DNA from: Pontibacter russatus | GTDB taxonomy: Bacteria; Bacteroidota; Bacteroidia; Cytophagales; Hymenobacteraceae | Length of the DNA stretch: 64,000 nt | Direction: 5' to 3' | Assembly (NCBI RefSeq): GCF_009931655.1 | Contig: NZ_CP047984.1 | Coordinates: 3,427,001-3,491,000, forward strand | Shown: piece by piece, positions 22,312-58,583 of the stretch | Layout of the letters: each line of letters opens with the position of its first letter | Position numbering within the stretch: the stretch's first letter is position 1 | Made by a program: the position numbers and the translations under genes | The notes under the pieces: generated by a model | What the model saw: the letters and a program-made list of their open reading frames with translations, nothing else | What the model was told of the DNA's origin: nothing | Databases searched by the model: none

Positions 22312-22354
22312 CAAAGGTACGGCACTCGCAATACGGCTTCAGTGACCTAGGTCA
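22312..22354 (-). promoter_or_regulatory. Crp/Fnr-type operator and -7 box, sulfur operon 1
   Basis: The palindrome TGACCTAGGTCA (22343-22354, centre 22348.5; flanking bases extend it to GTGAC...GTCAC) lies upstream, on the minus strand, of CAAAGGTA (22312-22319, i.e. TACCTTTG, a perfect Bacteroidota -7 box). The centres are 33 nt apart, a class II activator position. The transcript would run into the secreted protein, DoxX-DsrE and TlpA genes with a leader of about 290 nt. Confidence 0.75.
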
Positions 22355-22363
22355 CGCAGGCGG

Positions 22364-23200
22364 CTAAGCCAGGAAGATTTCTTTGAGGATGATATAAATG
22401 CCCATCACGAGCACGAACCAGCCAAAGGAGGTTTTCAGTTTGTCGGCGCGCACTTTGGTGGAGAGGAACGTGCCGATGAAAATGCCCGCAATGGAGATGG
22501 CGGAGAAAATGGTCAGGAACAGCCAGTCGATCTCGTAGTTGTAGATGTCGCCAAGGAAGCCAAAGAGCGACTTGACCGCGATGATCAGCAGCGAGGTACC
22601 CACCGCCATCTTCATGTCCAGCTTGCTGAAGAGCACCAGCGCCGGGATAATCAGGAAGCCGCCGCCCGCGCCCACCAGGCCTGTCAGGGTTCCCACCACC
22701 ACACCCTCGGCCAGGATACCGGCGTAGTTGAACCTCGGCTCAGGATGCGAGGCGTCTGGCTGTTTTAGATCCGCTTCTGTGTCGGCGCTCTCCTCTGCCG
22801 GGTCTTCTTTCGCCCGGATCATGCTGATGGAGGCAAACACCATCAGGGCGGCAAACAAGAGCATCAGCAGCACGCCCCTGGTCACCAGCAGGTCGCCTAC
22901 CGTGAAGAGGTTTTCGGGGATGGCCGGTACCAGGTAGCGGCGCGTGAGGTACACCGACACGATGGAGGGCAGCCCGAAAACCGCCGCCGTCTTCAGGCTC
23001 ACCAGCCCTTTTTTATAAAACTTATAAGAGCCCACCAGACTGGTGAGGCCGACGATGAACAGGGAGTATGCGGTGGAGAGCACCGGGCTGAAGCCGAGCA
23101 GATACACCAGCACCGGCACCGTTAAAATAGAGCCCCCGCCCCCAATCAACCCAAGTGAAAGCCCGATGATTAGTGCCGCCGCGTATCCTAAAATTTCCAT
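22364..23200 (-). CDS. TauE/SafE family membrane protein
   Basis: A 278-residue transporter-like protein with about eight hydrophobic segments. The start is the ATG at 23200. Typical features are the opening GYAAALIIGLSLGLIGGGGSILTVPVLVYLLG and, at the start of the second half, GVVVGTLTGLVGAGGGFLIIPALV, the repeated family motif. The family exports sulfite, sulfoacetate or other small anions. Between the halves is a charged loop (RAKEDPAEESADTEADLKQPDASHPEP). With DsrE-like and rhodanese proteins nearby, export of sulfite arising from persulfide oxidation is a reasonable inference. The gene has its own palindrome-controlled promoter at 23227-23269. Confidence 0.9.
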   Translation of the reverse strand: MEILGYAAALIIGLSLGLIGGGGSILTVPVLVYLLGFSPVLSTAYSLFIVGLTSLVGSYKFYKKGLVSLKTAAVFGLPSIVSVYLTRRYLVPAIPENLFTVGDLLVTRGVLLMLLFAALMVFASISMIRAKEDPAEESADTEADLKQPDASHPEPRFNYAGILAEGVVVGTLTGLVGAGGGFLIIPALVLFSKLDMKMAVGTSLLIIAVKSLFGFLGDIYNYEIDWLFLTIFSAISIAGIFIGTFLSTKVRADKLKTSFGWFVLVMGIYIILKEIFLA

Positions 23201-23226
23201 TTTACCTGTATAATGATTGTCGGATA

Positions 23227-58000: not shown

Positions 58001-58394
58001 CGGCATACTGGCCCAGCAGCATATATACCAGCTCGTCGTAAAACACCTGCGCATCCTCCTCTGTCTTGAAATAGCCGTAGCGGCTGCCCCAGGCCCGCCA
58101 GCAATTGGCCAGCCGGTGTACCACCTGCTTCACCGACCGCTCGGCCCCGGTGCTGCCGTCGGGTTGCGGCACACCCGCACGGCGCAGGTATTTCTGGGCC
58201 AGGATGTCGGTGGCAATCTGCGACCACTGCGCGGGCACCTCCACGTCCTTCAGCTCGGCAACCACATCGCCGGTGGGGGTGCGGATGGTGGAGGAGCGGA
58301 GTTCGTAGCGGAACACGCTGAAGGGGTCTTGCGCTGCTTTTGTGAAGTGGCGGGAAAAGGAAAGCCCCGCAGGTGTTTGAGAGATTTTTTTCAT
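55095..58394 (-). CDS. nrdJ: Vitamin B12-dependent (class II) ribonucleotide reductase
   Basis: A 1099-residue adenosylcobalamin-dependent reductase making deoxyribonucleotides without oxygen. Hallmarks are [85 protein letters not shown] and a C-terminal Cys-rich tail [21 protein letters not shown] for redox exchange. Long domain insertions match the large NrdJ type. Control by two Crp/Fnr-type palindromes (58519-58552) makes sense, since an oxygen-independent reductase is needed when oxygen is low or NO blocks class I enzymes. Confidence 0.95.
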   Translation of the reverse strand: [1099 protein letters not shown]

Positions 58395-58487
58395 GAGGTT
58401 CTATATTTAGGATATAAACGTTACCGCGTTGGGGCTGCCGGCGGGCCAGAGGGGACCGCCGCAGACGGAGGTGTTTCTAAGCGAGTA

Positions 58488-58583
58488 CTAAGCTAAGGCG
58501 TTTGGCTGCCGCCCGGCATGACCAATGTCATCTGCCGGAGTGACATCAGTCATTTTATACCGGCGCCTTTTGCCCTAAACTTG
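58488..58583. promoter_or_regulatory. Paired Crp/Fnr-type operators between nrdJ and ric, two -7 boxes
   Basis: Palindromes TGACCAATGTCA (58519-58530, centre 58524.5) and TGACATCAGTCA (58541-58552, centre 58546.5) are 22 nt apart. Plus-strand box TAAACTTG (58576-58583, centre 58579.5; one mismatch) is 33 and 55 nt away. Minus-strand box TAGCTTAG (plus CTAAGCTA, 58488-58495, centre 58491.5; one mismatch) is also 33 and 55 nt away. The arrangement is symmetrical for the two divergent genes. Confidence 0.75.

Follow-up and report, generated by a model that had tools for sequence, protein, structure and literature searches.

The window analysed here is a 64,000-nt stretch (3427001-3491000) of the Pontibacter russatus genome, which consists of one contig of 4,965,849 bases. 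The first-pass annotation had assigned to a common palindrome, TGAC-N4-GTCA, a set of targets comprising NO/N2O reduction, Fe-S repair, sulfur, nrdJ and proline dehydrogenase operons, and the nature of these genes was borne out by Pfam. The palindrome occurs eight times in the window compared to 0.66 expected, and none of 100 shuffles contained eight. All seven copies that the annotation had placed at promoters (centres 22348.5, 23263.5, 25699.5, 40993.5, 52004.5, 58524.5 and 58546.5) were found, as was a TGAT-N4-ATCA centred at 51945.5, which lies 55 nt from its box TACCTTTC (Table 1). The eighth copy (62530-62541), absent from that list, overlaps coding ORFs, and no box stands 33 or 55 nt from it.

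When distances of 10-119 nt were scanned in both directions, each of the seven promoter sites had, 33 nt away, a TAnnTTTG-type box with no more than one mismatch; the runner-up distances were 55 nt (three sites) and 48 nt (two sites), and none was above three. Using only the exact TAnnTTTG box, three of the same seven sites had a box at 33 nt and one at 55 nt. The annotation had placed each site at 33 or 55 nt from its box; 33 nt held for all seven, while each site at 55 nt has a partner at 33 nt from the same box, namely 41010-41021 (6/8 of TGAY-N4-RTCA), 51918-51929 (7/8) and the full pair 58519/58541. Scored as matching positions out of 8 at 33 and 55 nt, respectively, the window promoters gave 8 and 6 for nor, 6 and 8 for nos, 7 and 8 for proline dehydrogenase, and 8 and 8 for both the scdA side and nrdJ. 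The thioredoxin gene promoter scored 8 at 33, 0 at 55 and 7 at 54 nt, and the three sulfur promoters scored 8 at 33 nt and no more than 3 at 55 nt, one of them having 5 at 54 nt. The nor-nos and nrdJ-scdA pairs are used in both directions.

Table 1. Operators, their -7 boxes and the regulator gene in the window (distances in nt, operator centre to box centre)
Feature	Position	Strand	Box, distance and gene
Single operator, G..C flanks	22343..22354	-	33 nt from TACCTTTG 22312-22319; upstream of 133-aa ORF and DoxX/DsrE gene
Single operator, G..C flanks	23258..23269	-	33 nt from TACCTTTG 23227-23234; before TauE gene 22364-23200
Single operator, G..C flanks	25694..25705	-	33 nt from TACCTTTG 25663-25670; before MBL-rhodanese gene 24271-25608
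Crp/Fnr regulator	23472..24116	-	cNMP_binding and HTH_Crp_2; recognition helix SREVISR, Arg180; start codon uncertain (ORF 23469-24167)
Operator common to divergent nor/nos	40988..40999	.	proximal (33) to nor box GACCTTTG 40957-40964 (-)
Same operator	40988..40999		distal (55) to nos box TACATTTG 41045-41052 (+)
Weaker partner AGATTAAGGTCT, 6/8	41010..41021	.	22 bp from 40988-40999; proximal (33) for nos, distal (55) for nor
Distal operator TGAT-N4-ATCA	51940..51951	-	55 nt from TACCTTTC 51887-51894; proline dehydrogenase operon
Proximal operator TGAGGCAGGTCA, 7/8	51918..51929	-	33 nt from TACCTTTC; missed by the first-pass annotation
Operator	51999..52010	+	33 nt from TACACTTG 52034-52041; before Thioredoxin_9 gene 52059-52703
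7/8 partner of 51999-52010	51978-51989		at 54 nt
Full pair, member 1	58519..58530	.	proximal (33) to nrdJ box TAGCTTAG 58488-58495 (-)
Full pair, member 1	58519..58530		distal (55) to scdA-side box TAAACTTG 58576-58583 (+)
Full pair, member 2	58541..58552	.	proximal (33) to TAAACTTG (+), distal (55) to nrdJ box (-)

A second palindrome, TAAAAGA-N8-TCTTTTA, is present near two of these promoters. An exact copy (41004-41025) overlaps the nos pair, and a copy with one mismatch (58694-58715) stands before scdA, 33 nt from TACCTTTA at 58734-58741. Most relatives' nos promoters conserve this palindrome; tested as the site of a second regulator, it showed no genome-wide enrichment (23 places compared to 41 in controls).

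Conservation of the 33-nt distance

The fixed distance from operator to Bacteroidota -7 box that the annotation had described was found again in the genus, the family and the class. In the genome as a whole, the bare word TGAC-N4-GTCA is not enriched (35 places compared to 56 in the backwards control), and its frequency was rejected as evidence. By comparison, TGAY-N4-RTCA combined with a box at the fixed spacing, with at most one mismatch, gave 30 matches compared to 4 backwards controls, indicating that the signal sits in the word plus the spacing. The family was scanned with the exact word and the exact box separated by a free gap (31 possible distances). Among the matches listed for the 120 family genomes, own genome included and genus g4 outside the listing, 105 of 150 rows fell at 33 nt; by genus, the listed matches at 33 nt were 60/66 in Pontibacter, 35/53 in g6 and 3/16 in g5. 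In a draw of 395 genomes from the phylum (17 possible distances), 80 of the 145 non-own rows among the matches listed, all from the window's own class, were at 33 nt, and such rows came from 43 of the 62 genomes represented among these matches. At the fixed spacing, sites with G..C flanks numbered at least 100 compared to 0 backwards controls, and sites with other flanks 67 compared to 3, the relatives in these counts not being independent of one another. The 33-nt operator geometry is thus real and widespread, and it presents what a class II promoter requires: one fixed operator position adjoining the core promoter. Tabulating distances in the genome and its relatives, as the annotation had proposed, therefore returned a sharp peak at 33 nt, while 55 nt proved to be mostly the position of a partner of a 33-nt site.

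Paired operators 22 bp apart

According to the available part of PMC7366714, the -7 element of B. thetaiotaomicron has its centre at -7, so a distance of 33 nt puts the operator near -40 and one of 55 nt near -62. Scanning 49-79 nt yielded many matches at 55 nt, whose promoters were then fetched. As many as 47 of the 53 distinct matches at 55 nt carry at least 5/8 of TGAC-N4-GTCA at exactly 33 nt, while none of the same 53 has at least 5/8 at 32 or 34 nt. Among 14 matches at 56 or 57 nt, at least 6/8 was present at 33 nt in seven and at 34 nt in six. When the distal sites were grouped by downstream protein, all or most members of 14 of 17 groups had at least 6/8 of TGAY-N4-RTCA (best of 32-34 nt); the remaining three (groups 18, 40 and 44) showed no clear proximal site. 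Of the 22 own-genome sites that lack G..C flanks, 9 are accompanied by a partner scoring 7/8 or better exactly 22 bp upstream, compared to one partner each at offsets of 21, 23, 59, 81 and 90 bp and about 0.04 expected per offset (background 0.00186 per position). This count kept 28 of the 30 matches, L227 and L235 being the same places as L214 and L234, and several of those kept lie within ORFs or lack a clear target (L219, L224, L225, L234, L236, L238). One match at 55 nt inside an ORF (L022) was set aside as a probable chance occurrence.

The position at 55 nt is therefore mostly the distal half of a 22-bp pair whose proximal half stands at 33 nt. This does not support the first-pass view of 33 and 55 nt as class II and class I alternatives, since the 47 matches and the 14 groups above have a site at -40 along with the one at -62, and a class I promoter would have the latter alone. 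The AR1 surface, essential for class I activation, is restricted to E. coli CRP in the available part of PMC12531629, which agrees with the scarcity of lone 55-nt sites.

Two classes of sites

The single regulon that had been proposed is not supported; flanks, linked regulator genes and site number divide them into at least two classes. In a tally of named clusters, G..C flanks were found at 43 of 44 sulfur-cluster sites (TauE, MBL-rhodanese, rhodanese, thioredoxin and sulfur transporter groups) and at 0 of 85 sites of other named groups; two single-member clusters, L028 (a Redoxin gene) and L142, are also G..C. The groups without G..C flanks include, from Pfam of representatives, nos cytochrome, cupin, ScdA, metal ATPase, ccoN, truncated globin, USP, TrhO/UPF0176, YiaAB, F420-type oxidoreductase and others. 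A partner of at least 6/8 at 22 bp was present at 0 of 44 sulfur sites compared to 15 of 37 other sites at 33 nt, these 81 being the distinct 33-nt matches, out of 84, with a downstream ORF of at least 60 aa.

The paired set of the own genome also includes ccoN, ccoG, a metal ATPase, another COX1 protein, a USP gene, a GSDH-like gene and hemA, and its single G..C set also includes a second TauE, a second MBL gene and a SoxA/TsdA-type cytochrome; acetyl-CoA hydrolase (L209) and UPF0176 (L218) genes are preceded by single sites whose flanks are not G..C. There are thus at least two regulons, one of single G..C sites at sulfur genes and one of otherwise-flanked, often paired sites at NO/N2O, cbb3 oxidase, hemA and nrdJ genes. 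The second TauE-MBL locus (L021, L061; genome 3690905-3693916) has its own 33-nt site and only a fragment of a Crp gene (a 55-aa open frame).

Candidate regulators

HTH_Crp_2 is found at four places in the own genome, namely the window Crp, two receiver-Crp hybrids and one fragment. The window protein carries cNMP_binding and HTH_Crp_2 above the Pfam cut-off and aligns with CRP structures, and a hybrid has the same two domains behind a receiver domain, which places both in the Crp/Fnr superfamily. Among the matches listed for the other genomes, 72 of 96 G..C sites lie within 3 kb of an orthologue of the window Crp and 0 of 96 within 3 kb of a relative of the response-regulator-Crp (RR-Crp) hybrid. 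Conversely, none of the 67 other-flank rows or 58 paired rows is near a Crp orthologue, while 6 and 9 of them, respectively (15/125 among the matches listed), are near RR-Crp relatives; the paired rows comprise 52 at 55 nt and 6 at 56 nt, other matches at 56 and 57 nt being left out, and some promoters are in both lists.

Across the 120 genomes, Crp and G..C sites were both present in 55 and both absent in 55, with 8 having only Crp and 2 only the site, an association confounded by descent; G060, one of the two site-only genomes, contains a decayed Crp copy. In a named collection that overlaps the family sample, 36 of 42 Crp-relative loci hold a 33-nt site, and 48 of the 52 box matches over 19-79 nt are at 33 nt, all 48 with G..C flanks. 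Two of the remaining six loci (L267, L276) have slightly degenerate 33-nt sites; L274 has none, nor do L287-L289, which are distant relatives. RR-Crp occurs in at least 108 of 120 family genomes, so its presence does not discriminate.

One hybrid is linked to hemA, with a paired site between the two genes, and is preceded by two histidine kinase genes, of which one encodes two PAS domains and the other a receiver. This arrangement (L291; genome 4664000-4670700) of PAS-PAS histidine kinase, receiver-histidine kinase and receiver-Crp hybrid before hemA suggests a possible phosphorelay to a Crp-type regulator. From its position, we infer that the hemA-linked hybrid most likely regulates the paired class. 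FNR proper, the oxygen sensor, uses several cysteines for its iron-sulfur cluster; it was rejected as an identity for either protein because these cysteines are lacking, the window Crp having only Cys80 and Cys86 and the hybrid only Cys51. Given Cys80 and Cys86 in its sensor domain and its sulfur-gene targets, the window Crp could conceivably be a sulfane-sulfur or redox sensor.

Alignment with E. coli CRP shows R180, E181 and R185 retained in the window protein and K180, E181 and R185 in the hemA-linked hybrid (E. coli CRP numbering). In the available part of Rodionov 2005 (PMC1274295), R180 is reported to correlate with G3 of the motif, a position that we read as the one preceding TGA. The hybrid's class in the own genome has mostly A or C before the core, with G in L209, L211 and L231. 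The flank base thus appears to match residue 180 loosely, which is consistent with a recognition code and falls short of proving one. Small Crp-like genes with Pro or Gln at 180 end 4-18 bp before a T..A-flanked site in two own-genome loci (L212, L223) and in two relatives (L135, L118; the exact site of L118 is distal, at 56 nt). Together with the next gene (DinB_2, HbpS-like, YiaAB or F420-type oxidoreductase), they make up compact regulator-operator-target modules.

Discussion

We consider it probable that several Crp/Fnr regulators, likely activators, share one class II position, with the window Crp acting on the single G..C sulfur sites and a second protein, most likely the hemA-linked hybrid, on the other-flank, often paired sites. 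With the operator centre 33 nt upstream of the -7 box centre, near -40, the regulator would meet RNA polymerase as at class II promoters. The window Crp, through Arg180, would read single G-TGAC-N4-GTCA-C sites before TauE, MBL-rhodanese, rhodanese, sulfur transporter, thioredoxin and SoxA/TsdA-type cytochrome genes. The hybrid, with Lys180, would read sites with other flanks, often in two copies 22 bp apart (at 33 and 55 nt), before NO and N2O reductases, cbb3 oxidase and its metal ATPase, hemA, nrdJ, scdA and proline dehydrogenase. Where a pair lies between divergent genes it would serve both, the nearer site being proximal for each. Since 22 bp is about two helical turns, two dimers would presumably sit side by side on the same face of the DNA, and we would guess that the receiver domains join them.

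That the paired class is instead controlled by another Crp relative, either the second hybrid (923999-925045) or single-domain relatives, is less likely and deserves some weight, as such relatives exist and single-domain ones adjoin some of these sites in G013, G055, G033, G119 and G038; against it, a paired site immediately follows the hemA-linked hybrid in the own genome, and in genus g5 paired sites occur at 1.7-2.7 kb from full-length RR-Crp genes. We think it improbable that the sites are repressor operators blocking the -33 region. An operator at 33 nt does abut this region, and TG follows the post-core base in most G..C sites (G there in 70 of 74), where occupancy could hinder sigma; nevertheless, single-base spacing over many genes and regulators, with pairs fixed to the proximal site, would favor activation by contact. 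Least credible is the original proposal of one FNR/DNR-like regulator for all sites with 33 and 55 nt interchangeable as class II and class I, for although all classes share the TGAC-N4-GTCA core and the 33-nt spacing, the sites are divided by their flanks, linked regulators and pairing, those at 55 nt mostly have a 33-nt partner (47/53) and the class I surface is said, in the part of PMC12531629 available, to be limited to E. coli CRP.

Building on the favored arrangement of several regulators at one class II position, a broader and tentative generalization is that in Bacteroidia Crp/Fnr proteins may act from a single place, 33 nt before TAnnTTTG, without a stand-alone class I mode, and that residue 180 may read the core-adjacent base (Arg, G; Lys, mostly A or C; Pro or Gln, T). 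The hybrid might then add a second dimer 22 bp upstream, perhaps via its receiver domains, such that pairs would mark phosphorelay-controlled microaerobic genes and single sites the sulfur regulator.

The primary sigma factor of Bacteroidota is unusual, their promoters carry a -7 box, and little is known of how activators contact this polymerase. With a distance rule exact to a single base, regulons can be read from sequence across much of the phylum. The rule indicates where shifts or mutations should be made, and it predicts that lone class I sites are inactive there. It also allows us to propose candidate regulators of NO/N2O reduction and sulfur metabolism in Pontibacter and relatives.

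A description of the spacing rule, the pairs or the sulfur regulon was not found in the open-licence literature searched. The suggestion that the spacing rule is undescribed thus holds in that literature. The core word itself is known from HcpR in the available part of PMC1274295; core word and class II geometry are both already known elsewhere. HcpR of delta-proteobacteria and cyanobacteria has the motif TTGACnnnnGTCAA, with the same TGAC-N4-GTCA core and some NO-related targets, but T..A flanks, whereas sulfur and cbb3 targets are found here; the available part of that source gave no spacing rule for HcpR (PMC1274295). HcpR2 of Bacteroides and Porphyromonas has other motifs there, e.g., GTAACnnnnGTTAC, which in Bacteroides stands before hcp, and this regulon was rejected as a match because the sites here are TGAC-N4-GTCA (PMC1274295, available part). 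DNR/FNR of denitrifying proteobacteria (motif TTGATnnnnATCAA in the same available part of PMC1274295) likewise places nor, nos and related targets under a Crp/Fnr protein, but here the flanks are A, C or G..T and the core mostly TGAC. Unlike DNR/FNR, the candidate regulator here has a receiver domain and a single cysteine.

BT4338 is a Crp-family global regulator of Bacteroides. Its motif TATGTTnTAnAACATA, with carbohydrate targets in the available part of PMC11501099, is unrelated to the sites here, and its regulon was rejected as a match. What it shares with the regulators here is the Crp family and the phylum. In the FixLJ-FixK cascade of rhizobia, two-component signalling lies upstream of a Crp/Fnr regulator of cbb3 oxidase genes; two-component signalling above Crp/Fnr and cbb3 oxidase genes recur here, but the receiver and Crp parts are fused in one protein, whose phosphorylation is putative. 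Class II Crp/Fnr activation in E. coli uses a site centred near -41.5, and the promoters described here resemble it in the fixed operator just upstream of the core promoter, the Crp fold and the helix R/K-E-x-x-x-R. They differ from it in that the Bacteroidota -7 box replaces -10/-35, and from E. coli class II and class I promoters alike in that the distal operator at 55 nt is a 22-bp partner of the proximal one rather than a stand-alone class I site.
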